Shown: positions 9,471 through 38,985 of the stretch, in pieces
Layout of the letters: every line of letters begins with the position of its first letter
Position numbering within the stretch: the stretch's first letter is position 1
Assembly (NCBI GenBank): GCA_949751835.1
Contig: CATKHK010000126.1
Span: 1-64,000, forward strand
Direction: 5' to 3'
Length of the DNA: 64,000 nt
Source: Blepharisma japonicum
Lineage: Eukaryota > Ciliophora > Heterotrichea > Heterotrichida > Blepharismidae
Notes under the pieces: generated by a model
Databases searched by the model: none
The model's input: only the letters and a program-made list of their open reading frames with translations
What the model was told of the DNA's origin: nothing
Program-made: the position numbers and the translations under genes

Positions 9471-9483
9471 ATTAATGGAATTA

Positions 9484-13538: not shown

Positions 13539-13600
13539 TAATAATTTAATATCCCTTTAATGCTGTTCATGCCTAAATGATAAATTAATAAACATTACAC

Positions 13601-14500
13601 ATGGAAACTTGGAGAGAAAAATTCGAGAACCGCATTACAACAATCATCCTCTCTACCCTTGCTGTTGAGCTTCTGCTGCTCGTCGTGATGATTGCTCTCA
13701 TTTATAGCGAAATGTCAGCGAAATATATTTTTTATATTTTTTCAATCGTGGCTTTGATTGCGAGCACAATTTATTTTGCCTGGCATTCTTTAATAAAAGA
13801 AAATGCTTTCGAGCTGATTGCGTTTTTAATCATGTCCTCAATACTCAACTTCCACGGGATTTATATGGCGGTTCTTCATGCAAGGCCAATGCTGTTCACG
13901 GCTCTTTCATCACTGATTTTATCAGTCTGTCAGCTGTTTTATTATTTTACCTTTTATTTCGCATATCGCAAATTTGGATGAAGGATTGTAAACGCAATAA
14001 AGAATACTGATGCCAAAGTGATAACGGCTTTTAAGGTATATGAAACTTTTATATCAGTGATCAAGCTTGATTTTTTATTATACACACTCACTGTAGCTAC
14101 TTTTATTTATTACATAGCAGTAAACTGGAATAGCTTTATTCTGGGAGGGATGGTGATTTCCTTGATTTTTTATGCTTTTATGATTTGCTATTCTATTTTA
14201 GGAGTTTTTGGTGTAAAAGTTATATAGGTGACGAAAGAAAATAGATGTCTTCTATTCTCGTTTCTAGGGCTCTTGCCGATTCTAGCAGGCTTTAAGCTGT
14301 TTTTATTAGTAGCAATAGCAGCTGCTCCGGGGAAAAATATTGACCGTTTTATTTTAAGCCAAGCAATTGTGATTGCAATAGTTGATTTAATAATTGCCTG
14401 CACTATGGAAGTGCTTGGAGTTATTTGTTCTCAATCTTTTGGGCTGGGACTTGGAGCGATTCTTAGAAGAAACAGCGAGGTTTTGAAAACTTTGATATAA
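13601..14500 (+). CDS. Multi-pass membrane protein with 15-nt intron
   Basis: The ATG at 13601 opens a frame with one TGA-coded Trp (13979-13981). A 15-nt GT-AG intron at 14213-14227 carries the only in-frame TAG. Spliced, it encodes 294 residues ending at TAA 14498-14500. About eight hydrophobic helices are visible, starting with IILSTLAVELLLLVVMIAL and ending with AIVIAIVDLIIACTMEVLGV. The loops are short and basic on one side, and no large soluble domain is present. It is an integral membrane protein of unknown family. Its 3' end faces receptor copy A across about 58 bp. Confidence 0.78.
14213..14227 (+). other. 15-nt GT-AG intron containing an in-frame TAG
   Basis: The sequence GTAAAAGTTATATAG has consensus ends and is a multiple of three, so retention would end translation at its last codon. 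Its removal joins GVFG to VTKENR in the same frame, and both sides are hydrophobic membrane-protein sequence. The length is typical of Blepharisma introns. Confidence 0.82.
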
Positions 14501-14558: not shown

Positions 14559-17500
14559 TTATCTTATTGAAATAAGAGAGCTGCTTACATCGAGATTTGA
14601 AGAATGCTCAATATTGCTATATTTTGCTGGGGCCTCAATACCCGCTTCTAAAGGTGTTTTTACAGAAAGCTGAAACCTGAATAGCTTTGTTATATAGTCT
14701 CCTTTTATACTACTTTCCAAAAATGATGGTAAATATTTGGCCTGATAAATAACTCCTATAACCCAAATAGTAATCCATCCGATTCCAATCAGGTATTGTG
14801 CCAAGAGGTTATTTATATTACTTCCCCTTTTTAGGAAACAACATATAATGAAAATTCTGATTATGTTAGCAAAACTGCAGCAGATTCAAAGCCAAATACA
14901 AGAGAATAAAAAAGCAATAAACCACATTGATGCTCTTTGATAGTTATAAGACTGTGAAAATAAGGAAACTAAAATAAAAATAGCTGTCAAGTTTATACAG
15001 TTGACATGAAAAAGTGTTTCTGAGGACTGATAAACAATCATTTTAAGGGAGATCAGTAGAATTTGAAAAATAGTCTTATAAAATGCATGAATAGGCTGCT
15101 GCCAAAAATGAAAACTCGAGAAAATTGTCTCATCATCCCATATAAGCCTATAATATAAAAAGGATGGTAAATAAAGGAAGAGGGCAACTGAAGAAATTGC
15201 TGCATAGTATGCATGCTTACCTTGCCAGCAAAATACATAGCAGTCTTGGCTGTGAAAGCTATCTTTAAAGCTATTTCCAGTGCTCTCTGTACACTGAAAT
15301 GTCAGAAATAAAGATAAAGTGATGGGAGTAAATAGAAATTCTCCTATAATAGGAAACAAGCATTTTCAGATTTCACTTGATAATATCGCCGACATTATTT
15401 TAAAATCACTGCCTAAGCTAAATATTCTTTGCAGACTCAAAAAGAATCAAGCAAATGAGAAGACAACTGCCATATCAATTTGTTTCCAAATATTTCAACT
15501 GCTATTTCAGTCCCTGAAATCAAGAATTGCTATCTTGGCTCACTGTGAAATCAGAGGCAAAATTTCAGAGAAATCAGGGCCTATAGCCATATATTGTAGA
15601 GATTCTACAGCAATTAGGGTATCGGATAATATGTCAAGCCAGTTCTCTTTTTCTTTTACTTCAAGCATGGGGAATTGCTTTAATAAGATTGAATCATAAT
15701 TTTTGCATAAATAATATATGGTAATACCAAAAGGAATAGCAGCTATAAATAGCAATATTAAATAGCCATATATGAAAGATTGAGTTTCGCTTGTTTTAAA
15801 TGGGCAAGGCCAGCCAGTTCTAATTAAATCACTTGGGATCTTTCCGTTTGCTAACCATGATATGCTTTGAAAAGTTTGATAAAGAATTGCTAAGCTTGGA
15901 GTATAAATCCCACATAATGCAATTTCTCACGCATTTTCCTTTTGGATTAAATTATACACCCCAACTGTGACAGTTGAAGCATCATTTCCATAAGTAGCGA
16001 CCTTGATATTCCCTGAGCATCCAGTAAATTTTACTTTTCTGGCCCATTCTTCAATCGTTTGGCTGTTTAAATTGACTCCATTTGAAATCATTTCCTCAAA
16101 TGTATATGCCCCTAAATAAACTGCATCATAAAACAAGCACATGTAATCATCTGCATAACCATAAGCAGCCATAAATTTCTCCTTTATTTTTTTCCCAAAT
16201 TCTTTGTAATATGACAAAAATGTAATATGAATCAATCCTTCCATGATTTCGCTCCGCTTTTGGTATATATCTTTGCTTATAAGTTTTGGGTCTAGCTCCG
16301 AGCTGTTTAACGATATGTCTCCAATAATGAGGAAAATATCTCCTTTTCTCATTCCTAAGTCATAAAAGTTCTCAATGACTGGGTAGAGTTCTGGCTCTGC
16401 TACTTCGAGAACCACAAATCTGGTTTGCAATTGGATGATTTCTTTTACCATGTTTAAGTCAGTCCCGTCATATCCTATAGGGATAATTTGTTGTTTGTTT
16501 AGGATTTCAACGCTATAGTATTTGGCATGCATGCTAAACTGTTTTTTGAAGTCTAAAGCCCATGAGCTATTCGAATACAATAATGAGCATTTTTTAATCC
16601 CAAGAAAATTGAGAAATAAAGCAATCGTAGCACCATTGTATATACTTGGATATGTTAGCCTGAAATATTGAGGAAAATACTCAATATCACTTAGGGCGGA
16701 AGAGGATTGGACTCCTAAAATTGGGGCTGAAATATTTAGATCTTTGAATACTCAGAATGTTCCTTGGGCCATTTCTGAGGTTACTGGGGCAATATGAAAA
16801 TATCCTATATCATAAGAATGGGCTTTAAAGCAATTATGGGCGTAATTGTAACTAAAGTAGGAAGCTCCACAGTCTGATATATTATACGCTGATATCTCAA
16901 AATGGCTTAAAATGTTTGATTCTAAGTTAATTTCATTTACTGCGAAGACAGATCCAAACTGCGATATAGCATTTCCAAAATATAAAGACCCGTCAGGATT
17001 AGAAATCCCTCCTTCAAAGCTAATTGGAAGCTTTATTATAGAATTATCAGGGATTTCTAGCGAATGTCCGGGAAAAGATATGTCAGCTCAAAAATCAACC
17101 TCATGATCAATTACTGACCCAACAAGATTTGTTTGATTATTTTGAATATTTTGCACCCACAGCATAGTTTTCCAAATAATGTTTCTTTTTTCATAATTAT
17201 TAAAGGTATATCCCGAATATACGCCTTGAGTCCTGTCAATATTTGTCATCATTAAAAAAAACGAGGTAACCATATTCACAAGATGGCTTGCATGATCTTC
17301 CATGCTATGAGGAATGTAATTGCTAAGCTCATTAATTAAAATTGATCCATCCAAATAAGCAGATCAAACGCTTTGATGAAGAAAAATGAAAACATAGCCT
17401 TTTTTATGCATATCAGCCTCAACAATTGCTCTCTGTATTAGGACAGAAGTCTCACAATTCGTTGCGATGATAATGACTTTGACTCCTAAAGGTTTAATTT

Positions 17501-18077
17501 GTTTTGATATAATAAGATATATTGTTTCGTAAGGGGTTGAATTAGGAATTGTAGTTTGAAAAATAATATTGACATCCATATTGTTTTGGAAATCGAATGA
17601 TATCAGCTCAGGACTGTAAATAGCAATTGCCCTTTTTCAGTCAAAATATTTAATTAAAGATACTGTAGAATCTCTAAATTCAATAAAAGAATAAGCAGAA
17701 AAATATGTGTTATCTTTAAAATTCTTGGGATCATAGCCATATACAAGCTGGATAAACCCTTCAGTAATTGCGAATCTATTTAACTGTGTAGTGATACTTA
17801 ATGAAAAAGTGCAATCAAATACAAGCTCGAAGTCTATAGATGATACAAGATTTTCAATATCTTGCTCTTCTTTTATTTCAAAGGGAATATAAAAAACATC
17901 ATAATTGGAATTGCATTTAGAAGAATTTAAGTCTGGGCAATTATAATTGGACTTAGTGAATTCTATAAATTGTCTTGGGGTGAATTGACTGTATAGAATA
18001 GGAACGTTGATAAATTGGCTTGAAACAACTGCAAGCCAATATCAGCGAACTTGTCATTGATAAATATATTGTTCCAT
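14559..18077 (-). CDS. Double Venus-flytrap nine-TM receptor, copy A
   Basis: With TGA as Trp the frame is unbroken for 1,172 residues and ends in TAA. The ATG at 18077 gives a short N-terminus rich in TGA-coded Trp (YQWQVRWYWLAVVSSQF) that could act as a signal peptide. Two ligand-binding modules of the ANF-receptor type follow. The second ends in CLFYDAVYLGAYTFEEM, then KFTGCSGNIKV. About nine helices come next, with shared landmarks ESLQYMAIGPDF, LTFQCTES, DCYVFCWQGKH and YNYQRASMW. The cytoplasmic tail ends in SSLISIR. It is the most divergent copy together with E and lies at the 3' end of the array. It is probably a plasma-membrane chemoreceptor; the ligand is unknown. Confidence 0.82.
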
Positions 18078-18218
18078 TCTAAGAGTTTTTTTTATAGACG
18101 ACTCATGAAAATTAGCAAATGATTTTTATAAATTGGGGCTATATAATATGTAATAATTAAAAAGAATAAATGTTGTATACAAAACTTTCAAAAATTTAGT
18201 TAAAAATAGCATACATTA

Positions 18219-18408
18219 ATGACCCTTATAGATATATAGTAAAGAGATTATTTTCTGATTTATGTTCAAAAATTCATTTTTATTTAGTTTTTACATGGAT
18301 TTTTGAAGTTTCGATCAGCCAAAGCAAACTTCCTTCTTCTGACTTTTACTTTCTGATGCTCTCAAGATGATTCTTTGACTTTCGGCCATAGTGATCTATA
18401 AGGGTCAT
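18219..18408. mobile_element. 190-bp inverted-repeat element (MITE- or IES-like)
   Basis: The ends are a perfect 15-bp inverted repeat: ATGACCCTTATAGAT at 18219-18233 and its complement at 18394-18408. TA lies just outside the left end and overlaps the last base of the right end, compatible with a TA target site. There is no coding frame inside. It fills about half of the 355-bp spacer between receptor copies A and B. Size and termini fit a non-autonomous DNA element or a TA-bounded germline-eliminated sequence. Confidence 0.6.
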
Positions 18409-18432
18409 AATGGTTTAATGGAACAATAATAA

Positions 18433-21400
18433 CTACTCTAGACAAGAGTTGTCACTGCATTTCAGATCTTCTTTTTGAATTTCTTCAACGTATTTATATT
18501 TTACTGATTTATCGATTCCAGCTTCAGAAGGAGTTCTCCTGGATAATTGGAATCTAAACAACTTGCGAATATCTTGGCCTTTAGGGCGATTTAAAAGTGA
18601 TGGTAGATACTTTTTCTGGAATCAAATTCCAGCTGCTATTGAGAATACTCATCCAACCCCCAAAAGACATTCAGCAAGAATTAGATCCAGCTGAGAAAAG
18701 ATATGGCAAATTCAAAACCAGAGGCAATCAGTCAAGCAGATAGAGTATCACATTGATGCTCGATGATAATTATAGGGCTTTTTGATAAATCATGAGGCAA
18801 ATGCAAATAAAAAAATTATGATTAGGCAGCATACATTATAGCTTATTTCGGATGCAGGCAAGAGAATAATGCGTAATACAATTAAGAGAATCTGCCAAAC
18901 ACTCTTAATGACTGAGTGAAATGGTTGTTCTCTGATATGAAATACTAAATCTTCAGTTTCGTCTTGCCACATTGGCCGAAAGTATAAACTAGCAGGCAAA
19001 TAGAATAGAAGAATGATGGAAGAGATGACCACATATTTAATATGCATCCCTTGCCAGCAAAAAACAGTGCAGTCTTGATCATGATAGCTATCCTTAAACT
19101 CATTCCCAATGCTCTTAGTGCATTGAAATGTAATAAGTAAAAAATTGATGATTGGTATAAATAAAACGTCTCCAATAATCGGCAAACAATATTTTCCAAG
19201 TTCGTCCATTGCTGTAATTAATAAAATCTTTCACTTTTCTCCAATATGAAAAACTCTTTGAATAAGCAAAATTATTCAAAATGCTGCTATGATATCTATT
19301 AGCTCTATTTGATCTCATATATCTCATTCACTATCTTTTGTCGGGCCCATGATATCAAGCATTGCAAACTTAGTGAATTTAGAAAATTCAGACAAGAACC
19401 CAGTGAAATCTGGCCCTATTGCCATATACTGCAAACTTTCTATGATCATCGCAATATAAATCCAAGTATCAAGAAGAGTCTCTTCCTGAACTTTCTCAAG
19501 CATAGGAAACTTTCTTGTAAATATGAAATCAGAATACTTTAAAGCTAGCAAGGCTCCTAAAAGAAGCGGAATTGTTCCAATTCCAGCCAATACCAAATAT
19601 CCATAGAGAAATGATTTGCTTTCACTCGATTTAAAAGGGCATTCCTTATCTTGCCCAACAATAGGACTTGGCAGAACTCCTTTATTTTCATAGAATCATG
19701 AAATAGAATAAATATGTTCATAAAATTTTGCACCATCAGGATTGTAGATACCGCACAGTCTCATGGTTCATGACGAATTCACTTGGACTAGATTATAAAT
19801 ACCAAATGCTATTGTTGATCTGTCATTTCCATACTTATCGATTTGGATTTTCCCAGTACACCCTGTGAATTTTATAGATCTTATTGCCTTTGCAATCGTA
19901 GAACTGTTTAAATTGATTCCTTGTGAAATTAAGGAACCCAAAGCATGAGCCCCTAAGTAAGCTGCATCGTAATATAAACACATTATATCGGGTGCTAGTC
20001 CATATGAGCTCAAAAATTCCTTTTTCACCCTTTCTCCGATAGAGCCATAATAAGTTAAGACTCCAAAATATAATAGCCCATCCATTAATTCTTTACGCTT
20101 TTTATAAGTATCACATCCAATCTCAGCTTCGTTTAGATTAACAACATCAATGACTAAGTCTCCAATAAATAAATATAAATCACCTTTTCTTGCTCCTGCA
20201 TCATAGAAAGCTTCAATCACATTAAGCACATCGGGGGAGGTGACTTCCATAACTAGATATCTTGACTTCAAGCTTATTATTTCTTCAATAAATGATTTAT
20301 CGGTCCCATTATACCCACTAGCAACTAGTCTATTTTCATTTAATATTTCGATATTATATTGCTTGCATGATTTTTCAAATTGTTCTTTAAAATCTGTTCC
20401 TCAAGTAGCGTTTGTACATAAAAGGGAAACTTTTTTAATTCCAAATGAATTAAGCATAATAGCAACAATTAGTCCAGTAATTATATTTGAATATGAAACT
20501 CGTGTATACTGAGGATAATAAGCAAGAGTACTTAAAGAAGCTGTAGTCTGAATTCCTAAAGCAGGAGTTGATAAGTTTAAATTATGAAATATTTCTAATG
20601 TGCCTTCAGCTATTATAGTCTCTAAGCCAGTTAAATGAAGATAGCCAATATTTTTTAAGTGTGCTTTTAGGCACTTATAGCAATAGTCATATTCAAAAAT
20701 TGATGCTCCACAATCTGAAATATTAAAAATTGAGAGCTCAAAATTCGACAATATATCAGATTTATTATTGATATCATACACAGCATAGATAGCTCCAATT
20801 AATCCAAGTGCATTTTCTTCATAAAAAGTGCCATCTGGATTTGATGCCGCTCCATAAGCACTAATAGGAATTTTAATCTTTTCATTATCAGGAACAATAT
20901 TTGAATTTCCAGGAAAAATTAAGGGTGAGTTGACTTCTGTGATATTTCCGTTAATAGACCCACAAAGAATTTTTTCACTGTTTTGAATGTTATAGAGATA
21001 TGATGTAGAGTTTATTTCAGCAGCAGTCTTCATATAATTATTGAGAATAAAAGTAGAAAATGATCCCTGGATCTGGCTAGTGTTCATGAAAGATACCAAA
21101 TAAAGAGAAAATGAGTCTATGAGATACTCTAGATAATCTTCTTGGTTTTTAGGGATATATTCATCATCTGCAATCAATATTGATCCATCTAAATGAGCTG
21201 TCCATACGCTATGATGGAGAAAAATAAATGCGTAATCTGCTTTATTCATGTCTGCTTCAAAAATTGCTTTTTGCACGAGCACTGCTGTGTCTTCATTTGT
21301 AGCAATGACTATGACCTTGATCCCAAGAGGCTTTATTTGATGTGAAAAAATTAGAAGAATTGCCTCATAAGAAATCAATGACGGGACTATGGATTGTAAA

Positions 21401-21894
21401 GCTATTTCGATTTCATTATTTACTTGAAAGTCCATGCTTTGAAATTCTTGACCTAAAAGGACTGCCACTTTCTGTCATCCACGCGATTCAATAAATGATA
21501 AAGCTGTATCTCTTAAAGAAACATATGAAGGCTCAGTATAGTAAATAAAATCTTGAACGGTTTCTGAGCTGTAGCCGTACACAAGATTAACAAATTCATA
21601 CGACTTCGCATAATCGCTAATAATAGATGTCATACTAAGCGAAAAAGTCCCATCAAAAGAGAAAGAAAAGTCAAGCTTTGATATCAAGATTTCTATGTCA
21701 AGAGCGCTATTAACTTCATACAAAACATAATATACAGTTGAATTTGTGCACTTCTTAGAGTTAATTTCAGGGCAATTATAATTGTTTGAGAAAGCTTCTA
21801 CTATTGAATTTGGAGTGAATTTACTAAATAGGATTGGAATAGTAATGTACTGGCTTGCCACAAAATAGAATAAGGCAGAAATTAGAAAATTCAT
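18433..21894 (-). CDS. Double Venus-flytrap nine-TM receptor, copy B
   Basis: This frame of 1,153 residues runs from ATG 21894 to TAG 18435-18433. About 13 of 19 Trp codons are TGA. Residues 1-17 form a signal peptide. Module 1 (about 20-330) has the family fold order: a Gly-Trp-x-Lys-Val motif (RGWQKVAVLLG) and a closing QGSFSTFILNNYMK segment. Module 2 (about 340-745) repeats the order: KKVSLLCTNATWG, PDIMCLYYDAAYLGAHAL, then KFTGCTGKIQIDKYGND. Nine helices occupy about 757-1095, including FLYGYLVLAGIGTIPLLLGA and LPIIGDVLFIPIINFLL. The tail ends in SDNSCLE. An outside N-terminus and odd helix count put the tail in the cytoplasm. It is close to copies C and D. Confidence 0.85.
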
Positions 21895-21954
21895 ACAGCA
21901 ATTAATTATTTAGATAATAAAAAATCGAAAATTCTCAAATTTTAAATTTATATG

Positions 21955-22185
21955 TTTGAGTTAAGTTCTCTCTTAGCATACTCAATGTTAAGCCAATTAT
22001 AGCTATTATTTTAGTTAACTGAATTCTTTCTCAGCAATCAGCACCTGAATATTTAGAATGTGCAGTGGTCCTTAGGTCAAAGAAATAGAGTAGCAAAAAA
22101 TAATGCTAATATATAACAAATAGAGGCCATAACTGATCAGCCAAATCTAATTGTGCACCTAACATGCTAAATCCTCTAAATATTT
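21955..22185 (-). pseudogene. Relic 3' end of an E-type receptor gene (B-C spacer)
   Basis: This stretch aligns by eye with the 3' end of receptor E and its downstream flank (31030-31310): the C-terminal tail, the region before it, and part of the last membrane helix. A good example is 22130-22180 against 31252-31305, where AACCAAATC-type blocks recur in order. Small insertions and deletions break any frame. It begins about 60 bp upstream of the start of copy B, as equivalent relics do for C and D. It does not resemble the B/C/D tails. Confidence 0.6.
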
Positions 22186-22747
22186 CAAGTTTTTTTACTT
22201 CAAACTTAAAATAAAAACTTTTATGGTAAACTTTAAATATTTCACCCAACCTCCCTCAGAATCTGCAAATGCCGCTCTCTCCAGCAAAATTTAAAGGAAA
22301 AGAAGGAAATTTCTTAAATCACCTTGAACCCGACAATTAATCACATGAAGAAAGAGCTTTAAACATCATGAAGAAAATTAATCGATCCTAATTAATTCAA
22401 TTTTACTAAATTTTATCTGATGATCTTAATATTTAGTTTTTATTTAAGGATTTTTGCAGCTTTTAGATCACTTAAACAGACGCATCTTTTGCTTTTTTTT
22501 TCGTCCTAAAAAACACTGTTCAATACAGGTCATCTTGAGCCCCCGCTTTACGCAAAAGGGGACAAAAGGTACAAACGTAATGATAAGATTGCATACATAA
22601 TTTTCTGAGATAAATATATTACTAAATTTCATAGGTCTTCTAAGTAAGAGTATTATTTTTTATGTTTTCGTATAGATATATAACTCATAAAAGAAGAAAT
22701 TATATAGGAAAATATAAACAAACTTATAAAACAATATAATGTGGCAG
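22186..22747. other. AT-rich spacer between copies B and C
   Basis: No gene is seen. A stretch near 22430-22490 (TTAGTTTTTA, GGATTTTTG) weakly resembles the interior of the inverted-repeat element at 18219-18408, so it may be a decayed relative, but no inverted ends were found. A short CCCC/GGGG hairpin near 22540-22562 is the only compact secondary structure noticed. Confidence 0.35.
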
Positions 22748-25700
22748 CTACTCTAAATAAGAGTGGTCGCTACTTCTCAGATCTTCTTTGTGAACCCCTT
22801 CTACATATTGGTATTTTACTGAATTATCGATTCCAGCTTGAGATGGAGTTCTTCGGGATAGTTGAAATCGGAATAATTTGTGAATATCTTGGCCTTTTGG
22901 GCGAACTAAAAGTGAAGGGAGATATTTTTTCTGGAACCAAATTCCAGCTGCAACAGAAAATACTCATCCAAGCCCCAAAAGGCACTGAGAAAAAATTATA
23001 TCTAGCTGCGAAAAGTAGTGACATATTCAAAGCCAGAGGCAGTCAGTTAAGCAAATCGAATATCACATCGACGCCCGATGATAATTATAAGGCTTTTTAA
23101 TAAATCATGAGCTAAATGCAAGCATCGAAATTATGACAAAGCAGCATATGTTATGGCTTATTTCTGATGCAGGCAACAGAATAATATGTAATTCAATTAA
23201 GAGAATTTGTCAAAAACTCTTTATGGCTGAGTGAAATGGTTGCTCTCTTATATGAAATACTAAGTCTTCAGTTTCGTCTTGCCACATTGGGCGAAAGTAT
23301 AAACATGCTGGCAAATATAGCAATAATATGGCAGAAGAACTAATCAAATATTTAATATGAGTTTTTTGCCAGCAAAAAACATGGCAGTCTTGATTATGAT
23401 AGCTGTCCTTAAACTTATCCCCAATGCTATTAGTACACTGGAAAGTCATAAGCAGAAAATAAACAATTGGTATAAATAAAAGGTCTCCAATGATTGGTAA
23501 GCAGTATCTTCCTAGCTCATCCATTACAGCAATTGACAAAATCTTAATATGAAAAATTCTTTGGATGAGAAAAATAGCTCATATTAAAGCTATAATGTAC
23601 ATAAACAATATCTGAGCCCAAAAATCTTTATTTGGACCTCTGATATCAAACATAGTGAATTTAGTAAATTCAGAGAATCCAGGCAAGAATTCGGTAAAAT
23701 ATGGTCCAATAGCTATGTACTGCAAGCCTTCTATAATTATAGAGATATAAATTCATGTATCGAGAAATGTTTCTTCTTGCACTGAGTCAATTATAGGAAA
23801 TTCTCTCATAAATATATAATTAAAATACTTTATAACTAAAAAGGCTCCAAAAAGAAGTGGAACTGTTCCAATCCCAGCCAAAAGCAAATAGCCATACAAA
23901 AACGACTTGATTTCGCTCTTCTTGAATGGGCAGTCAAAATCTGCGCCAACAATATCACTTGGCAAAATTCCTTGATTTTCATAGAATCATGAGAAAGGAT
24001 AAACAATTTGATAAATAGCCGCACTATAAGGGTTGTAAATACCGCACAATCTCATTTCTCATGAAGAATTTGCCTGTATCAAGTTATAAATGCCAAACAC
24101 TATGGAGGATCTATCATTTCCATATTTATCGATTTGAATTTTTCCAGAACATCCAGTGAATTTGATATTTCTTATTGCCTTTGAAATCATTGTGCTACTT
24201 AAATTAATTCCTAATGAAATTAAGGTGTCCAAAGCATGAGCTCCTAAATAAGTGGCGTCATAATATAAGCACATTATGTCAGGAGAAGTACCATAGGTTT
24301 CGAGCAACTTAGTCCTCAATCTTTCTCCAACTGAACCATAATAAGTAAGGACTTTGAAATATAAAGCACCATCCATCAGTTCTTTTCGCTTTATATATAT
24401 CTCTGTCCCAGTTTCAGTCTCATTGAGATGTGTAATATCAATAACTAAATCTGCAAGATAAAAATAAAGTTCTCCTTTTCTGACTCCTGCATCATAAAAA
24501 GTTTCAATCACACGAAGATAGTCAGGAGAGGTAACTTCCATTGCAAGATACCTTGACTTCAAGCTTATAATTTCTTCAATAAATGACTTATCAGTTCCAT
24601 TGTACCCTAGAGGAACTAACCTGTTTTTGTTTAAAATTTCAAGGCTGAATTGTTTGCCCTGACTTTCGAACTGTTCTTTGAAGTCTATGCCTCATGTAGT
24701 GTTTGTACATAAAAGTGAGACTTTTTTGATGCCTAAAGAGTATAGCATCCAAGCAACATATGATCCAGAAATTGTATTAGGATAGGAAACTCTCGAGTAC
24801 TGAGGGTAATAAGTTAGATTACTCATCGATGCTGCTGTTTGGGCTCCTAAAACAGGGATTGATAAATTTAAGCTTTGAAAAATTTTAATTGTGCCTTGAG
24901 TTATTGCTGTATTCAAATTACTCAGATGAAAATAGCCAATATTTTCTGCTAGGGCTTTCAGACAGTTATAGCAATATTCATATTCAAAGACCGATGCTCC
25001 ACAGTTTGAAATATTAAAAATTGAAAGCTCAAAATTTGATAATATTTCAGATTTGTGATTGATTTCATACACAGCATATATAGCTCCAGTTAATGCTAAT
25101 GCATTTTCTAGATAATAAGTGCCATCTGGATTTGATGCTCCTCCATAAGCACTAATAGGAATTTTTAACTTTGTATTATCTGGAGCAGTTAAGGAGCTTC
25201 CTGGGAAAATAAAAGGTGAGTCCACTTGCACCTCACTATCATTTATATATCCACAGAGAACTTTTTCACCGCTTTGAATATTGTACAGATAAGACTTAGA
25301 TTTTCTCTTAACAACATTTTTCATATAATTATTGACTGTGCAGCCTGAAAAAGCTCCTTGAATTTCGTTAACATACATCAAAGATTTAATTAGAAGCGAA
25401 AAGCTATCTATAAGATGCTCCAGATAGTTTTCTTCATTGCTGGCGACATAATAATCATTTGAGATCAATATTGATCCTTCTAGATATGCTTTCCAAACGC
25501 TATGATTTAGGAATATAAAAGCATAGTCTATTTTGTTCATTTCTGCTTCAATAATTGCTTTTTGCACTAGAATTGTTGTGTCTTCATTTGTAGCAATAAT
25601 AATTACCTTGACTCCTTGCGATTTGATTTGTTTTGCGAAGATCAGGAGGATAGCATCATAAGAAATTAATGAAGGAATTATGATTTGTAAAGCTATATCA

Positions 25701-26188
25701 ATTTCATTATTTACTTGAAAATCCATTCCTTGGAATTCTTGACTTAAAAGAACAACAATTTTCTGTCATCCACGCGATTCAACAAACAATAAGGCGGTGT
25801 TTCTGATAGAAATATAAGAAGGTTCAGAGTAGTGAACAAAATCTTGAATTTTTTCTGGGTTGTAACCATACACAAGAAGGACAAATTCATATGATTTCGC
25901 ATAATCACTAATAAGAGACGTCATACTTAGAGAAAATGTCCCGTCAAAAACAAAAGTAAAGTCTAGAGCAGCTATCAAGGCTTCTATGTCAGCAGGCCTA
26001 TTCACTTCATATAAAACATAGTTTACACCTGAATCTGCGGTACATTTCTGAGAGCTGATTTCAAGGCAATTATAATTTTTTGAAAATGCGCTTATTATTG
26101 ATTCAGGAGTAAATTTACTATGCAGGATTGGAACAGTAGTGTATTGGCTTGTCACCAAAAAAAATAAAACAGAAATCAGAAATGTCAT
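22748..26188 (-). CDS. Double Venus-flytrap nine-TM receptor, copy C
   Basis: The frame of 1,146 residues runs from ATG 26188 to TAG 22750-22748, again cut only by TGA. A signal peptide (MTFLISVLFFLVTSQY) precedes module 1, which includes SRGWQKIVVLL and CTVNNYMKN. Module 2 holds KKVSLLCTNTTWG, APDIMCLY-like PDIMCLYYDATYLGAH and KFTGCSGKIQIDKYGND. The nine-helix region keeps QTIGPYF in place of MAIGPDF seen elsewhere as a small change (IAIGPYF), LMTFQCTNS, DCHVFCWQ and YNYHRASMW. The tail ends in SSDHSYLE, as in copy D. An E-type relic lies about 57 bp upstream. It is probably a cell-surface chemoreceptor with unknown ligand. Confidence 0.84.
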
Positions 26189-26244
26189 GCAGCTATTAAT
26201 TATTCACTAGTAAAAATAAAATAAACAATTAGGCAATTATTAGA

Positions 26245-26475
26245 TTCTAAAATTTGTCTAATTGAAGAATTAGAATTAATTTTTATATTACATATTTAAT
26301 GCAATCAAATTGTGAACAGCATGATTGGTTATTCCAGCTTAAGCTTGCAATCTGAGAGAATATCATGACATGCAAAATAAAGCTGCTATATAAAGCCAAT
26401 AAACAGCAAAGCAGGCTAGCCAAACCATGAATTAATTTTATACATAAATTTATTAATTTAGCTATTAAAACAAAA
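26245..26475 (-). pseudogene. Relic 3' end of an E-type receptor gene (C-D spacer)
   Basis: This aligns with the tail and last helix of receptor E and with sequence just past its stop. The part farthest from copy C still reads as a membrane segment (FVLIAKLINLCIKLIHGLAS), comparable to IAKISKLAAQLVLGFGW in E. Later parts have lost the stop context and diverged. It sits about 57 bp upstream of the start of copy C, the same relative position as the other two relics. Confidence 0.65.
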
Positions 26476-26564
26476 AAAATTGAAACTGAGATCGAGTATT
26501 GCAAAAAGACTTAACTCGCGTTGGCGAGAGATCAAAACTTTTCCTCACTCACTATCTGATGCAA

Positions 26565-26800
26565 GATTAATTGAACGCACAAATATTAAATACATTTTGA
26601 ATATTGTAGATCATTTTTCTAGATATGCATGAAGTTCTTTACTCGTAAGCAAGAAATTTAGTACATTAGAGATAGAGTTAATAGGGATGCAAATGACTCA
26701 GACTGATAATGGGAAGGAATCATAACATAAGATTTAGTATGTTAAAAGCTATCTGGTTTAATCTATAAATTGTTCTTACTAGGCTAGTCAATGGCTAAAA
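26565..26800 (+). mobile_element. Fossil fragment of an rve-integrase element
   Basis: A short stretch reads as the retroviral-type integrase core, with IVDHFSRYAW followed at the expected distance by QTDNGKE, both hallmark motifs of the rve fold. No reverse transcriptase, capsid or terminal repeats were found. Only a scrap of about 0.2 kb remains, clearly broken and old, lying in the spacer upstream of copy C. It could derive from an LTR retroelement, a Polinton-like element or another rve-bearing transposon; the fragment is too short to decide. Confidence 0.6.
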
Positions 26801-26979
26801 TAAATTCTATTAAGCATCATAAAGCAAATTCTTGATATAATCATATAATTCTTTAATAAACTTAAGTAATATATAAATTATTAAATTTTTTACTTAGAGA
26901 TATATAATTAAAAGCATTAAAAATAGAAGAAAATTGCATAAAATATAAACGAAATTTCAAACATAATAGAGCAGCGCAA

Positions 26980-29900
26980 CTACTCTAAATAAGAGTGATC
27001 GCTACTTTTCAGATCTTCTTTGTGAACTCCTTCAACGTATTTATATTTTACTGATTTATTGATTCCAGCTTGAGAGGGAGTTCTTCGAGATAATTCAAAT
27101 CGAAACAATTTGCGAATGTCTTGGCCTTTTGGGCGGACTAGAAGTGATGGGAGATATTTTTTCTGGAACCAAATTCCAGCTACCACTGAGAATACTCATC
27201 CAACACCCAAAAGACACTGAGCAAGAATTATATCTAGCTGAGCAATGATGTGGCAAATCCAGAGCCAGAGGCAATCAGTCAAGCAGATCGAGTATCACAT
27301 AGATGCCCGATGATAGTTATATGGTTTTTTAATAAATCATGAGCTGAATGCAAATAAGAAGATTATTACAAAGCAGCATATGTTATAACTAATTTCAGAT
27401 GAAGGCAAAAGAATAATGTGTAATAAAATCAGGAGCAGCTGTCAAAAACTCTTTATAACTGAGTGAAAAGGCTGCTCTCTGAAATGAAACACTAAATCTT
27501 CAGTTTCATCTTGCCACATAGGGCGAAAGTATAAACTAGATGGCAAATATAGAAATAACATGATAGAAGAGCTGACTACATATTTTAGATGTATCCCTTG
27601 CCAGCAGAAAACAGTACAGTCTTGATTATGATAGCTGTCTTTAAACTCATCCCCAATGCTGTTAGTGCATTGAAAAGTCATAAGCAGAAAATTTAAAATA
27701 GGTATAAATAAAAGGTCTCCAATAATTGGCAAGCAGTATTTTCCTAGCTCATCCATTGCGGTAATCAATAAAATTTTGCACTTCTCTCCAATATGGAAAA
27801 TTCTCTGCATAAGCAAAATAATTCAAAAAGCAGCTACAATATCCATAAGTTCTATTTGATCCCAAATATCTCACTGGCTTTCTTTTGTTGGCCCTCTGAT
27901 GTCAAGCATAGCAAACTTAGTGAATTTAGAAAATTCAAGAAAGAAGCCAGTAAAATTTGGTCCGATTGCTATGTATTGTAAGGCTTCTATTATCATAGCA
28001 ATATAAATTCATGTATCGAGAATTGTTTCTTCTTGCACAGAGTCAAGCATAGGGAATTCTCTCGTAAATATAAAATTAAAATACTTTATAATGAAAAAGG
28101 TTCCTAAAAGAAGTTGAAGTATTCCAATTCCAACCAACAGCAAATAGCCATTCAAAAAAGACTTGCTTTCCTTCGGTTTGAATGGGCAATCAAGATCCGC
28201 ACCCACAATATCGCTTGGTAGAACTCCTTTGTTTTCATAAAACCACGACATAGAATGAACAGTTTGAAAAATATTTGCACCATCAGGGTCGTAAATACCG
28301 CACAGCCTCAATGTTCATGTAGAATTTATTTGAACTAAGTTATAGATGCCAAATGCTATCGTTGATCTGTCATTTCCATACTTATCAATTTGGATTTTCC
28401 CAGTACACCCTGTGAATTTGACATTTCTTATTGCTTTCGAAATCGTTGTGCCGTTAAGATTGATTCCTAATGAAATTAATATATCCAAGGCATGAGCTCC
28501 TAAATAAGTGGCATCGTAATCTAAGCACATAATATCAGGAGCCATCCCATAGGTGCTCAGTAGCTCAGATTTCAATCTTTCTCCAACAGAGCCATAATAA
28601 GTTAGAATACCAAAATATAATAATCCATCCATTAGTTCTTTTCGCTTTATATATGAATTATACCCAACTTCAGTCTCATTCAGATATGCGGGATCAATAA
28701 CTAGGTCTGCAAGAAATAAGTACAGATCTCCTTTTCTGATTCCTGCATCATAAAAATCTTCAATCACACGAAGATTGTCAGGGGAGGTGACTTCCATTAC
28801 AAGATACCTTGACTTCAAGTTTATGATTTCTTTAATAAATGATTTATCAGTTCCGTTGTACCCATGAGGAACCAACCTTTGCTGGTTTAAAATTTCAATA
28901 CCGTATTCCTTACTATTGCTTTCAAATTGCTCTTTGAAATCAGTGCCTCATGTAGCGTTTGTACATAAAAGAGAAACTTTTTTAATACCAAAGGAGTATA
29001 GCATGATAGAAATAATTGTCCCTGAAATTGTGTTAGGATAGGAAACCCGTGTGTATTGGGGATAATAGGTAAGATTACTCATAGAGGCTGTTGTTTGGAT
29101 TCCTAACACAGGAGTTGATAAATTTAAGCTGCTAAAAATTTCTATTGTGCCTTGAGTTATTATGGTCTGCAAGCCGGTTAGATGAAAATAACCGATATTT
29201 TCTAAGTGTGCTTTTAAACAGCTATAGCAATAGTCATATTCGAAGATAGATGCTCCACAATCTGAAATATTAAAAATTGAGAGTTCAAAATTCGATAATA
29301 TTTCTGATTTTCTATTTATATCATATACAGCATACATAGCTCCAGTTAAAGCTAATGCATTTTCAATAAAATATGTACCATCTGGATTTGATACTCCTCC
29401 ATATGCACTAATAGGAATTTTTATCTTTGTGTTATTAGGAGTAGCTAGAGAGCTTCCGGGGAAAATAAAAGGTGAGTCCACTTGCACCTCATTGCCATTC
29501 ATATACCCACAAAGAACTTTTTCACTGTTTTGAATGTTATACAAATAGGATGTGGAGTTTCCTTCAATAACGCCTTTCATATAATTATTGACTGTATAAG
29601 CTGAAAAAGCTCCTTGAATTTCGTTATCATTCATCAGATATATTATAAAATGAGAAAAATTATCAATAAGATATTCCAGATAATTTTCTTCACTGATAGG
29701 AACATAATCGTCATCTGAAATTAATACTGATCCTTCTAAATATGCAGCCCAGACGCTATGGTTGATGAAGATAAATGCATAGTCTGCTTTATTCATATCT
29801 ACCTCGATAATTGCTTTTTGCACTAGAACTGTCGTGTCTTCGCTTGTGGCAATAATGATGATCCTAACTCCAAGCGGCTTAACTTGCTTAGCCAAAATAA

Positions 29901-30444
29901 GGAGAATTGCATCATAGGAAATTAGTGGAGGGATAATGATTTGTAAAACTATATCAATTTCATTATTTACTTGAAAATCCATACCTTGAAATTCTTGGCC
30001 TAAAAGAACAACAGCTTTCTGTCATCCACACGATTTAACAAATGATAAAGTGGTGTCTCTGATAGAATTATATGAAGGCTCAGAATAGTAAACAAAATCT
30101 TGACTGGCTTCTGGACTATAGCCGTACACAAGATGAACAAATTCATATATTTTAGCATAATCACTAATAAGAGATGTCATGCTTAGTGAAAATGTTCCAT
30201 CGAAAGCAAAAGTAAAGCTCAATGATGATATCAAATCTTCTATATCAAGAGCGCTATTAACCTGATATAAAACATAAAATACGCTTGAATCTGCTGTACA
30301 TTTCTGAGATTTGATTTCAGAGCAATTATAATTTTTTGAAAAAGCATTCCTTATTGATTCTGGGGTGAATTTACTGTAAAAAATAGGAATAGTAGAGTAT
30401 TGGCTTGCCACAAAAAAAAATAAAACAGAAATCAGAAAATTCAT
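26980..30444 (-). CDS. Double Venus-flytrap nine-TM receptor, copy D
   Basis: The frame of 1,154 residues runs from ATG 30444 to TAG 26982-26980. A signal peptide (MNFLISVLFFFVASQY) is followed by module 1 (TLSFVKSCGW, AYTVNNYMKG) and module 2 (KKVSLLCTNATWG, PDIMCLDYDATYLGAH, KFTGCTGKIQIDKYGND). The membrane part contains IPILNFLLMTFQCTNS, DCTVFCWQGIHLKYV and PMWQDETEDLVFHFREQP, which are near-identical in B and C. The tail ends in SSDHSYLE. B, C and D clearly form a recent subgroup. One position in module 2 reads Asp where B and C have Tyr. The ligand is unknown and no kinase or G-protein motif is visible in the tail. Confidence 0.85.
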
Positions 30445-30499
30445 GCAACAATTAATAATTTAGCATAAATAAAATAAATAATAGACAATAAGCATTTCC

Positions 30500-30690
30500 A
30501 AATTAACCTATTTGAAATTGACGCTAATTCCATATCAGCATCTTCAATTACGGTTAAATTATATCCAGCAAGATGAATCTTCCCTACTTATACGAGTCCT
30601 ACTAGTAGGAATAATAAATAAAACAATAATATATAAGGCTAGCATCGATAAAAAATAGCCAGCCAAGTAGAGTATAATTGTATACTAACT
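30500..30690 (-). pseudogene. Relic 3' end of an E-type receptor gene (D-E spacer)
   Basis: This aligns with the E tail (30524-30590 against 31060-31115). It appears to lack about 50 bp relative to E before a further matching block near 30595-30690. It begins about 56 bp upstream of the copy D start. The intact E gene ends about 350 bp farther on, so this is an extra copy of that end rather than part of E. Confidence 0.5.
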
Positions 30691-31041
30691 TGCAGGTTTT
30701 GATAATAAGATAACTTCCTATGCGTGAAAGAAAATCAATAAAATGAAGCATAATTATTCAAAATGATAAACAGTTTCAATATCTTGAGCTTATTTCTAGG
30801 AAAAGTAAAATCAAAATTATTATTGGAGCAAGGGTTATAAACTGACAAAGGTGAATCAGCTGTATAAAAAAAATTTGATAAGAGGACTGCAATTCTAAAT
30901 TTAAAAACATTTATCACATAATATAGCTGCTAATTTATGAATGGAATTATTAAAACAAAAGAATTATTTATGAGAATAGATCTTACTGCAATTGAATCTT
31001 TTAGCCTAATAAAATTTAAAAAATCTCCAAATTTTTAAATT
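30691..31041. other. AT-rich spacer upstream of copy D relic
   Basis: A 60-codon minus-strand frame (30917-30735) is present but has no recognisable motif, so I do not call it a gene. Nothing else was seen. Confidence 0.35.
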
Positions 31042-34000
31042 TTATCTACTTGAAGAATAAGAGTTAATTTCTATATCAACATCTTCAATGCCAGCCAAAT
31101 TGTAACCAGTGTGTTTAATTATTCCTGCTTCTACTGGGGACTTATTTGATAATTGGAATCTGAATAATTTGAGGATATCAGGCCCTTTAGGCCCTACTAG
31201 CAGAGATGGCAAATATAATTGCTGATATATTATACCAATAGAGAGTAAAAGTACTCAACCAAATCCAAGCACTAATTGAGCAGCTAATTTGCTAATTTTA
31301 GCTATAGCGCAACAAATCCACAGCCAAAAGCTGCAAGAAATAAACACTACATATCACATAGACGCTCGATGATAATTATAAGGCAGCCTAAACAATGAAA
31401 AAGCAATTATAAAAATTAGCACAGCAACTCCGCAGCCGATAAAAACATATTCTGAAGCAGGGTAAACTACAGTGTAAAGTATAATTAAAATGGTTTGACA
31501 AAAGCTCTTATTTACTGCATGCACAGGCTGCTCTCGAAAGTTAAATAAAGCTTGCTCAAGGTTGTCTTGCCAAGTCGGCCGATGATATATGCTGGCAGGC
31601 AAGTATAAGAAAATTGCAGCTGAGGACAAAACCACAAAAATTAAATGCTTACCTTGCCAGCAAGAAGTTCAGCAGTCTTGGTGATGAAAACTCTCTTGGA
31701 AACCATCCCCATTGCTGCTTATACATTGAAAGGTTAGCCATAAGAAAAGGTTCATAGGCAAAAACAGGGCATCTCCAATATAAGGTAAAAAATACTCGCT
31801 AATTTCATCTATGACTCTAAGGAAAAATATCTTTGAAGTCTTACGCTTAAAGGTCCTCAGCATCAGTAAAATAAATCAAATTAGGGATATAAACTCAATC
31901 ATTCCTATTTGGTTTCAAATTGTTCAATGAGCGCTTTTATTTCACCCCCGGATATCGAACATAGAGATCCTGGTAAACACTGATAATTTTGGGAAAAAAG
32001 TAGTAAAATCTGGACCAACTGCCATGTATTGCAAGGACTCTACTATCATTATGACATAAGCAACAAAGTCTAAAATTGTTTCTTTCTTAACTGAAATTAG
32101 TAACGGAAATTCACGTCTAATCAAAAAATCTCAAGAGACAGCTAAAAAAGCGATGAGAAGTAATAGAGGAGAAAGTTCTATAATAGATATGATTATATAC
32201 CCAAATATAAATGGCTTAACTGCTTCTTCTTTAAAAGGACAGTCAAGATCAGCGCCAATTATGTCGCTGGGGACTTTCCCATCACTTTTCACTCATGAAA
32301 TCGTAGAATCAAGCTTCAGCATGACTTCAAGGTTTGGATTATACATCCCACAATATTTCATAGTCCAAGTTGAATTTATTTGCAGTAAATTATAAATCCC
32401 AAGCCTTATTGTCAGTCTATCATTCCCATATCTGCCTATTTTAACTAGGCCTGAGCAACCATTAAAAGTTACGCTTCTTGATAGATCTTCTATGGTTGAG
32501 CTGTTTAATTTTGTGCCTTGATTTAGCAAAGCGTCAATAGTATGGGCTCCAAGATAGACGGCATCATAAAATAGACACATGTAGTCATAAGCAATGCCAT
32601 ACTTTTCTAGTAAAGATGCCTTAACTCTTTTTCCTATGTCTCCATAAAAAGCTAAAAAGCTGATATAGATCAATCCATCCATGATTTCTATTCTCTTTGC
32701 ATAAGATTCACTTCCAATCTGTTTTTCGTCCAAATCATAGATGCTAACTGTGCCATCTCCCACTATAAGAAAAATATCTCCTTTCCTCATTCCCAGGTCA
32801 TAAAGCGCTTCTATTACATAAAACACATCTGGCTGATTCAGTTCAAGCACCACATATCTGCTTTTTGTGTCAATTATTTCTTGGATAATTGTTTTATCAG
32901 CTCCTACGTATCCAGGATTAAGAGCTCGATTTTTATTTAAAACCTCAATCCCATAAGATTTAGCTTGACTCACAAACTGGACGTTATAATCGTTTCCTCA
33001 AGTTGAGTTTGAGTATAGTAGTGAACACTTAGAAACTCCTAAAACAGATAGCAGCAAAGCAGCAGCTGAGCCTGTAAATGAGTTTGGAAAAGAAACTCTG
33101 GCATACTGAGGATAATAATTAAGATTACTCATTGCGCTTGATGTTTGGGTCCCAAAAATGGGCGTAGAAATATTGGCTGCTTTGAAAACTTGGACAGTCC
33201 CTTTAGCTATAGATGTTTGCAGCCCTGGGACATGAAAGTATCCTAAGTTTTCTGTGTGCCTTTTAAAGCAATCATAAGAAAAGTTATAATCGAAATAATA
33301 GCTCCCGCAGTCAGAAATGTTATAAGCCGCTATGTCAAAATTCTCCAAAAGCCCGTCCATAGAATTAAGTTCGCTTACAGCAAGCATGGACCCCATTTGA
33401 TTAATTGCATTTCTGGGATATATGAAGCCATTTGAGTTCGAAACGCCTCCATTGATACTGAAAGGAATTTCAAACTTCTCGTTGTCTGGGGCTTCTCAGC
33501 TTCCTCCAGGAAACAATAAAGGAGACATTATATTAACCACATTCTTTGATATAGTTCCCAACCTTGGCCTCGTCCCATTCTGCAACACATTATAAATTGA
33601 AAAATCAACTGACCAATTTAGCCCAATTTCTACATATTTATTGAAATAATAAGCTGAATAGGATCCTTGATATTGGTTATCATTAGTCATAGATAACAAC
33701 AAGGCAGTGGTTCATTGGATAATTGTATTTAAATAATCAATTATCCCAGTGTTAGAAATAGATTTCCCTTCAACTAAAATTGCTCCTTCTAGGTTTGCAG
33801 CTCAAGCACTCTGCTGAACAAATATATAAGCATAGCCACGTTTATACATTTCAGCCTCAATTAATGCTTTTTGTATAGAAACGGAAACGCTTTCATTTGT
33901 CATTATTAACATCAGCTTAACACCTAAAGGCTTTATTTCTTTCGTGATCATCAGAAAGATCGATTCATACGATGCAGCTGCTGACACGACATACTGCTGT

Positions 34001-34503
34001 ATGATTTTTATATCCTTGCTCTCTGTAAAATTTACTCCAATATATTCTGTGCTCAAAATTGCGACTGCTTTTTGCATTCCGTAATACTTCGCTAATGAAA
34101 TAACTGCTTCTCGGTACGTTTCAAAGGGAAAATCTGAATAATAAATATTTTTTGTGGGATTATCAGGGGAGTAAGCATACACAAATTGAATAAAACCGTA
34201 AAATCGTGCGAATTCGCTGATTAAATTGGTCATACTTAATGAGTAAGTCCCATCTAGAACGAAGGTAAAATCAGAATCTTCAAAAAAATTTTGAAAATCA
34301 GCCAGGTCGTTCACCTCATAAGGGATGTAAAACACAGGAGAATTAGGTTGACATCCAGGGGCATTTTTATAAGGACAATTATAGTAAGTTTTAAAGAAAG
34401 CAACTATATCTTTAGGAGTAAATTGACTGTACATAATTGGGATCGTGACGAATTGACTTGCGACTTTAAAAAAAACACATATCAAGATGAGGAGTATATT
34501 CAT
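31042..34503 (-). CDS. Double Venus-flytrap nine-TM receptor, copy E
   Basis: The frame of 1,153 residues runs from ATG 34503 to TAA 31044-31042. The signal peptide is MNILLILICVFFKVASQF. Module 1 shows TKEIKPLGVKLMLIMTNE and QGSYSAYYFNKYVE. Module 2 shows CSLLYSNSTWG, DYMCLFYDAVYLGAHTID and TFNGCSGLVKIGRYGND, closer to copy A than to B-D. The membrane region keeps ESLQYMAVGPDF, LTFQCISS, a Cys-Trp-Gln-Gly motif and YNYHRASMW. The tail is distinct and ends in NSYSSSR. It lies at the 5' end of the array in transcription order. Relics of its 3' end precede copies B, C and D. Confidence 0.84.
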
Positions 34504-35443
34504 TTGTAATCTTTAATTTTTTACACCTGAGATTAATGAATGATTTATTAATAAATAGCTATATAAGACAAATTAATTCAGCATTATGAGAGAGTGAGTG
34601 CGTTTTGAAAAGTTTTGTAAAATTTTAATTAGAAAGAAGCTTGTTTTTAAATTTTGATAATAAAAATTAAATATATAGCATATAAAAGCTTATAGCTAGG
34701 AGTTCTCCAGCTGATTTGGTGAAGTTGAGTTATCAAAGAAATTAGCAAGCTTTCCACTAAGTCTTTAACTCACACCAAACTATAAGCCAGGATGTGTTAA
34801 ATTATGGGAAAATAAAAAAATTGTACAGCTAAAGTCAAATAATTGTTGTTGTGCTGAAAATATTAGGGTTTAATAATCATTCTAAGAATTTCTCTCCAAG
34901 CTCATTCTGAAATTATAAATATGAAGTGGCTAATAATCCATGGTTTAAAAATAAATTTTGGCTGATCCAAAAATTTCTTAAAGTACCGCTAGGAAGATAA
35001 GCAGAGGCATTCTTACTTGAAAAGCAGATTTAAGATAAAAAAACTCTTTAAAATGACTATGAGAAAATAATAAAATTTTAAATTGCTTTCAGACATATGG
35101 AATAAATGCTTATTTTCGCCTATTAATTGGCGAATTTTTGTCGATCAAAAAACTGAGACATTATTACTACTACTTCAGTTCAAATGAGAAAATTCTAGTA
35201 AACTTGCATTATCAATTATTTAATTACTAGATTATTTAACTTCAAGAAAATAAGAGAAATTTTCATGCATATTTCTTAGATATACACAAGTCAATTAATA
35301 AATTTACCATATTAAAACTTACAACTAAAACTTTGCATATTTAAAATTATTATGGAAATATTACCATGATTATGAACATGAATAATTATAAGAAAATTTT
35401 CACTTATATTATGAAATAAAGCATTTCATATAAAAATAAATTA
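34504..35443. other. AT-rich spacer between receptor E and the ATPase
   Basis: No coding frame is supported on either strand. A short palindrome (TTCGCC and GGCGAA around 35115-35135) was noticed but is too small to classify. The spacer must hold the promoter region of receptor E near 34504. Confidence 0.4.
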
Positions 35444-38400: not shown

Positions 38401-38869
38401 CTGACTTAGCCTGCTGAAAATAGCTGAAGCAGCCAGTCAATAAAACGGTAACAACAAGAGAGGTACCTAGATAAAAATTTGAAGGGTCTTCTGGGCTCAT
38501 ACCATATGCAGCATAGCATAAACCAGCTCCTGCTCACAAGAGAAGAGAAAAGAGGCCAGTCAGTTGCTTTATAAACTTGCAGTACCAAGGTAAGCCTTTC
38601 TTTTCGGAGAGCTTATTTTCTCCAAAGATCTTTAATTTTCCACGGGCTGATGACTCGTTGAGACCAGTGTCGTAGTTTGTTTCAAGCTTTCCAGCAAGTT
38701 CTCCCAATGATATTTTATGTTCTACCATTTCTCTGAAAGTTTCAGAATTCTTGATGGCTGTGTCAGTTCTGGAGCTTGATGTATCTTTTATAGTCTTTGA
38801 GTCAGGAGTAGTTTTGCTTAAAAGCTTCTCCTTATAAGGAGATGTGCTTGGCCTGAATGCTTTAGACAT
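35444..38869 (-). CDS. P2C-type cation-transporting ATPase (Na,K-ATPase alpha-like)
   Basis: The protein has 1,141 residues with two TGA-coded Trp (38536-38534, 35677-35675). P-type hallmarks in order: LTGESEP, the phosphorylated Asp in CSDKTGTLTENK, KGAPEQLW, MVTGDQPLTA and TGDGVNDSPAIKKADIGIAMG. Helix 4 has ANVPEGLLAEVTVALSL, helix 5 YVLASNIPEILPF and helix 6 AIDLGTDMVPAVSLAYE, keeping the Glu, Ser-Asn-Glu and double Asp ion ligands of Na,K pumps. Helix 5 has Ser where H,K pumps have Lys. Helix 8 reads TQWANL where animal Na,K pumps have VQWADL, and helix 9 reads VLET for FEET. The end is GWIEANTFY, resembling GWVEKETYY. A long acidic loop separates helices 7 and 8. It pumps monovalent cations across a membrane; exact ions are uncertain. 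Confidence 0.92.
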
Positions 38870-38985
38870 AAAATCTCAAATATTTTCAAATCAGCATGTT
38901 TTGGGTTAAATCTTTAAATTTCCGGTAAAAAATGACTGGCTATTTATTGCTATGATAAGGAGAATTAACCATTTTTAATGGCAAA

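Follow-up and report, generated by a model that had tools for sequence, protein, structure and literature searches.

A large, apparently undescribed family of double-flytrap receptors with a nine-helix membrane half remotely related to TmcB in Blepharisma japonicum

The window analyzed here, a stretch of 64,000 nucleotides on contig C126 of the Blepharisma japonicum assembly (45.2 Mb in 224 contigs), contains a tandem array of five receptor genes whose products carry two successive type 1 flytrap modules followed by nine predicted membrane helices. They belong to a real, large, and apparently undescribed family in which known flytraps are joined to a membrane core of a kind new to flytrap receptors. 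We class these proteins with the flytrap receptors, and as neither class C GPCRs nor TmcB proteins. They probably represent a heterotrich family of cell-surface chemoreceptors in which closure of a flytrap drives a TmcB-type membrane core, and this may be an undescribed way for single cells to taste their surroundings.

The array occupies the minus strand at 14559-34512, where five open frames of 1152-1188 amino acids each are found when TGA is read as Trp.

14559..18125, minus strand: receptor copy 1, a frame of 1188 amino acids from stop to stop with the first Met at 18077; domain matches (minus strand) are module 1 inside 17031-18023, module 2 at 15981-16946, and the membrane part at 14577-15884
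18433..21909, minus strand: receptor copy 2, 1158 amino acids; module 2 at 19789-20793, membrane part at 18436-19722
22748..26206, minus strand: receptor copy 3, 1152 amino acids; module 2 at 24080-25090, membrane part at 22751-24013
26980..30459, minus strand: receptor copy 4 (P0001), 1159 amino acids; the copy used for structure prediction
31042..34512, minus strand: receptor copy 5, 1156 amino acids, first Met at 34503; module 2 at 32389-33384, membrane part at 31060-32289

The initial annotation had described five genes in tandem ending at 34503, which is the first Met of copy 5, and the five frames bear this out. Wherever TGA occurs in one copy, the codon most frequent in the others at that column was noted: it is TGG in 18 cases, followed by the Phe codon TTT (6) and Cys codons (2), with the rest scattered; because TGG is the commonest codon at these columns, TGA most likely encodes Trp. 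The genome paper on Blepharisma stoltei describes a nuclear genome of 41 Mb that is 66% AT and in which UGA is Trp (PMC9942806). Overall pairwise identity among the five copies is 43-78%, with copies 2-4 at 72-78% to each other and copies 1 and 5 at 43-46% to the rest. The receptor copies are under purifying selection: the three close pairs formed by copies 2-4 have dN/dS values of 0.11-0.26 (with dS 0.46-0.90), and the distant pairs do not exceed 0.29, their dS being near saturation or not estimable. The five open frames, the selection, and the presence of orthologs together exclude the array as a product of chance.

Several other genes lie close by. A P-type cation-transporting ATPase at 35444-38905 (minus strand) directly adjoins the array, and a small hydrophobic protein, probably multi-helix and with no Pfam match, is encoded beside copy 1 at 13592-14227 (plus strand). 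A single open frame of 8021 amino acids, neither half of which matches Pfam, extends over 39748-63813 (plus strand). About 5 kb from the array, at 8313-9527 (minus strand), is an ODR4-like gene (PF14778, E 4e-35). ODR-4 proteins of Caenorhabditis elegans help odorant receptors to reach the cell surface. The genome has three ODR4-like places, so the nearness of this one to the array may be due to chance, and a partnership with the receptors is no more than a possibility. Beyond the window, contig C126 carries about nine or ten more receptor loci at 65431-104539; TAA or TAG stops interrupt two of their matches, and some of the loci lie in split frames, suggesting decaying copies or short introns.

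The Pfam ANF_receptor profile (PF01094) matches all five copies, each in two stretches, and together with structure prediction this establishes the presence of the type 1 bilobed flytrap domain. The AlphaFold2 model of the whole of copy 4 (mean pLDDT 86.7, pTM 0.61) includes both flytrap modules, as opposed to a single one, and nine helices. The parts of copy 4 are as follows.

29425..30402, minus strand: flytrap module 1, residues 20-345, from the AlphaFold2 model
28255..29424, minus strand: flytrap module 2, residues 346-735
28156..28254, minus strand: linker, residues 736-768, with a Cys at 758 in 76/76 rows of alignment A3
27154..28155, minus strand: nine predicted helices, residues 769-792, 813-832, 865-887, 897-927, 956-985, 997-1016, 1022-1042, 1050-1073, and 1077-1102
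26983..27153, minus strand: C-terminal tail of 57 amino acids, predicted to be cytoplasmic, rich in Lys and Arg

When aligned to each other with hhalign, modules 1 and 2 give a probability of 82.9, an E value of 9e-6, and a score of 47.1, compared with 22.2 for the best of 30 local shuffles. The claim of two successive type 1 binding modules is thus upheld by the paired Pfam stretches, by this comparison, and by the model. Module 1, when excised alone, scores 12.9-34.3 bits against the Pfam profile and exceeds the cut-off (25.4 bits) in only one of the five window copies, and it is above the cut-off in all three of the other family members tried. A profile built from nine module-1 sequences matches the amino-terminal domains of the NMDA receptor subunit GluN1 (E 2e-11). 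Module 2 resembles the flytraps of class C GPCRs and of plant GLR proteins, with a match to AtGLR3.4 at E 7e-27. Two positions that, by our own reading of the alignment, may correspond to the lobe-1 amino-acid site are Ser or Thr in only 58/76 and 42/76 rows, and for this reason the site does not settle the ligand class.

The membrane half, when modeled alone, has a mean pLDDT of 88.3 and a pTM of 0.85, and nine long helices are present both in this model and in that of the whole protein. The hydropathy averaged over 33 relatives has eight peak regions, the last of which (1060-1092) could hold two helices; the earlier estimate of about nine helices is consistent with both approaches. The charges of the loops mostly agree with an N terminus outside and a C terminus inside, the exception being the loop of five residues that connects helices 6 and 7, which is predicted to be outside and has a net positive charge. 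The tail contains a mean of 8.6 Lys and Arg as against 4.4 Asp and Glu (76 rows of A3). From the hydrophobic N-terminal stretch, which is weaker in copy 1 than in copies 2-5, the odd number of helices, and most of the loop charges, we infer that the flytraps face the outside of the cell and that the tail is in the cytoplasm. Positions invariant over the 76 rows of A3 include Asp815, Gln828, Pro920, Cys931, Cys948, Cys952, His957, Arg979, Tyr1049, and Arg1051. Cys931, Cys948, and Cys952 are in the loop between helices 4 and 5, which is predicted to be outside, and these three, together with Cys758 of the linker, are Cys in 76/76 rows. The sequence landmarks reported at the outset are conserved in part: CW is present in all five copies, copies 1 and 2 have exactly ESLQYMAIGPDF where copies 3-5 have altered forms, and YNYHRASMW is exact in copies 2-5 and reads YNYQRASMW in copy 1.

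In searches of the five copies no Pfam domain besides the flytraps was found, nor any match to Lig_chan, a cyclase, or an NCBIfam family. The class C membrane model 7tm_3 matched neither the five copies nor a set of 28 membrane halves, and it does match other places in the same genome. The search with the membrane half alone therefore identified no recognizable seven-helix class C domain. At the level of the PDB, no relative of the copy 4 membrane half was found by sequence at E up to 10, and a profile of the 28 membrane halves had no match at E up to 1. The Foldseek lists for the membrane half contain no significant row, the best having an E value of 1.9 and one OSCA chain an E value of 5.0, and a family missing from these lists is not thereby argued against. 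A few Pfam matches among the 28 membrane halves, to Oxidored_q2 (2/28), Rnf-Nqr (1/28), and Zn_peptidase_2 (1/28), are weak and were taken to be chance matches of hydrophobic helices.

These results bear on two other explanations of the family. The receptors might be class C GPCRs of a divergent kind, with two additional helices and an output by way of G proteins, a reading that we regard as decidedly unlikely. A class C membrane domain is rejected by sequence; the fold lists give a class C bundle no support but are too weak to exclude it. Candidate components of a G-protein route occur in this genome: a single frame of 676 amino acids (G000 C42:11919-12683) scores 89 bits for G-alpha, and an RGS domain lies behind one 7tm_3-like stretch. 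The remaining G-alpha matches fall short of the cut-off, and some or all of them may represent small GTPases. The 7tm_3 matches are three, in small frames (L065, L066, and L067), one of them above the Pfam cut-off; of two frames that were scanned, one continues into the RGS domain. Alternatively, the proteins might have no signaling role and serve in solute uptake, with the flytraps feeding a nine-helix transporter. This is the least probable of the explanations considered, since the five copies gave no match to an ATPase or a transporter family and the Rnf-Nqr and Oxidored_q2 matches are weak and confined to one or two of the 28 members. The two tethered flytraps, the large and diversified family, and the kinship to proteins with TPR and PAS parts appear to fit sensing better than uptake.

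This kinship had been suggested in the initial annotation as a possible resemblance of the membrane part to proteins of the Tmc type, and it is supported, as a remote relationship, by comparison with TmcB (tiny macrocysts B, PF25474). The comparison set combined TmcB proteins encoded in this genome with relatives from the databases, of which 38 were found and 33 were taken into alignment A6. Helices 2-8 align with the TmcB membrane module in hhalign with a probability of 95.7, an E value of 9.2e-9, and a score of 70.8; the reversed profile scores 14.7 and 80 local shuffles score at most 26.2. An ordinary TmcB HMM misses the receptors (best E 1.6), and the homology of helices 2-8 to the TmcB module is accordingly described as remote and as resting on profile-profile comparison. 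The shared features are an IE..Q helix in the core, with Gln in 26/38 TmcB rows, an LFIP motif, with Pro in 38/38, and a pair of loop Cys at the counterparts of residues 931 and 952, both being present in 35 of the 38 rows and neither in the other three. In contrast, the Cys pair 758/948 of the receptors has no TmcB counterpart, and the receptors have an extra helix 1 ahead of the shared part. TmcB proteins contain TPR_TmcB and, in some cases, PAS domains, whereas Pfam identifies neither in the receptors; even at E up to 1 none of the five copies was matched by TPR_TmcB (PF25474), and conversely the flytrap profiles matched none of six TmcB loci read in this genome. The TmcB-type proteins, too, form a very large family here, as TPR_TmcB matches at least 146 places in this genome (for example L059-L064).

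This last number is of interest for a further explanation, in which the receptors are sensors that assemble with TmcB proteins, whose TPR and, in some, PAS parts relay the signal inward. The homologous membrane module offers a like-with-like contact, potential partners are abundant, and the receptors themselves have only flytrap Pfam domains and a tail of only 57 residues. Remote similarity does not, however, imply co-assembly, and we consider this arrangement unlikely.

Matches to the family are numerous in the genome. Those listed comprise at least 106 for the ANF profile and at least 99 for the membrane part, and they merge into at least 143-144 candidate loci on 42 contigs; at least 114-115 of these loci are on contigs that carry three or more. 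The family probably numbers on the order of a hundred genes, in a clustered expansion like those of chemoreceptor families. Among the matches listed, 54/106 ANF and 54/99 membrane matches pair, the membrane match lying 64-163 bases downstream of the ANF match; the rest are unpaired because the samples differ or the partner was not scored. Outside the window, module 1, module 2, and the membrane part occur in that order in all 26 complete ORFs examined. Eight of these ORFs represent all of L001-L008, the best ANF loci, and the other 18 come from L039-L058, a set of 20 loci in which L044 and L058 are each divided between two frames; L009-L038, for which the sequence is incomplete, were left out of the count. 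Six short frames of 178-439 amino acids, which lie at locus ends or in split genes, match the membrane profile without module 2.

Database relatives, the nearest named ones being from the heterotrich B. stoltei, carry PF01094 in 87/87 cases in one search and in 10/10 in another. The 87 comprise 65 named B. stoltei and 22 from environmental or transcriptome sources, and the further 10 comprise nine from B. stoltei, giving 74 for this species, and one unnamed ENA entry. The B. stoltei proteins are labeled only as unnamed product or as receptor ligand binding region domain-containing. No named relative from Stentor coeruleus is among the 97, in searches that reach only relatives with shared short exact words; a Stentor TmcB did surface in the search for TmcB relatives. 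Alignment A3 took 71 of the 97 relatives and A4 took 74, those omitted being mainly shorter proteins and some B. stoltei paralogs. Counterparts in B. stoltei were found for copy 2 (P0003, 84% identity), copy 3 (P0004, 82%), copy 4 (P0002, 85%), and copy 5 (P0009, 92%); the best identity for copy 1 is at most 46%. P0002, P0003, P0004, and P0009 share the same longest-contig figure, 763135 bases, suggesting that the array itself is conserved. In a tree of 31 proteins from this genome, 51 from B. stoltei, and 20 others, 11 of the 31 tips from this genome each have a single B. stoltei protein as their sister and the other 20 do not. Copy 4 has no one-to-one partner there, since the tree was built without its ortholog P0002, a shorter protein. 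The branching shows a one-to-one correspondence of the two species in some lineages and multiplication within one species in others, as in chemoreceptor families.

A literature search, in which subscription journals and preprints were mostly outside coverage, returned no description of the family and no paper on TmcB-type membrane modules or tiny macrocysts. A survey of ciliate GPCRs made its selection by 7TM families or similar models and, in the text available, reports no family C; the word ANF is absent from its main text (PMC9960496). The 7tm_3 matches in the present genome contrast with the lack of family C in that survey (PMC9960496). A GPCR study of animal relatives describes a search of other proteomes, including those of ciliates, for glutamate-type receptors with the 7tm_3 profile (PMC12716839). 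The B. stoltei genome paper does not use the word receptor in its main text (PMC9942806). If our reading is correct, a large receptor family of single cells can be missed by surveys based on 7TM models, and TmcB-type membrane modules gain a plausible role as signal transducers. To our knowledge, no receptor for a Blepharisma gamone is known. Gamone 2 is an amino-acid derivative, and a paper of 2024 on gamone 1 speaks of putative gamone 1 receptors (PMC10892320). Flytraps bind ligands of the kind to which gamone 2 belongs, and the family supplies candidate receptors for the gamones.

In the mechanism that we propose for the chemoreceptor family, module 2 would close on a small ligand, for which an amino acid or a related metabolite is the likeliest identity, and module 1 would be a dimerization or modulatory unit like the amino-terminal domain of GluN1. 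By way of the linker, closure would act on helix 1 and on the large loop that joins helices 4 and 5. A putative disulfide between Cys758 and Cys948 may act as a clamp that ties the linker to this loop; the pairing is proposed because the other pair of the loop (931, 952) has TmcB counterparts and 758/948 does not. The core would then signal, and the output is the weakest point of the proposal. A putative ligand-gated conductance is our first choice and has about an even chance; it is preferred because there is no catalytic domain, the intracellular loops are of 7-20 residues, and the tail has only 57. Coupling to a cytosolic or TmcB-type partner is possible and has a clearly smaller chance, and classical G-protein coupling is less likely again. 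A bolder and quite tentative extension is that the family represents a third wiring of flytrap to membrane, neither GPCR nor iGluR, in which double flytraps drive a nine-helix core of the TmcB type that matched no solved structure in our searches. The output would probably be a ligand-gated conductance, Blepharisma-like heterotrichs would have in this family their main chemosensory repertoire, and the gamone 2 receptor would be among its members.

The receptors share features with several known systems. Class C GPCRs (mGlu, GABA(B), T1R, and CaSR) have a flytrap ectodomain in most members but differ in having one flytrap where the receptors have two, seven helices as compared with nine predicted here, and a 7tm_3 domain, to which the receptors have no match by sequence; the layout thus looks distinct from class C, as had been claimed, with two modules and no recognizable class C 7TM domain. 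The iGluRs are similar in their flytraps, module 1 resembling the amino-terminal domain of NMDA GluN1 and module 2 that of plant GLR (AtGLR3.4), but their pore domain, Lig_chan, has no match in the five copies. Elsewhere in the genome there are three Lig_chan matches, two of them above the cut-off. In the bacterial sensor kinase EvgS, tandem flytraps likewise precede the membrane but, in the account consulted, the output is a histidine kinase (PMC8174306). The receptor adenylate cyclases of trypanosomatids, as described in the available text, also have two extracellular flytraps and form a protist family proposed to sense the environment, but these are joined to one helix and a cyclase domain, whereas the Blepharisma receptors have nine helices and no catalytic domain (PMC6027212).
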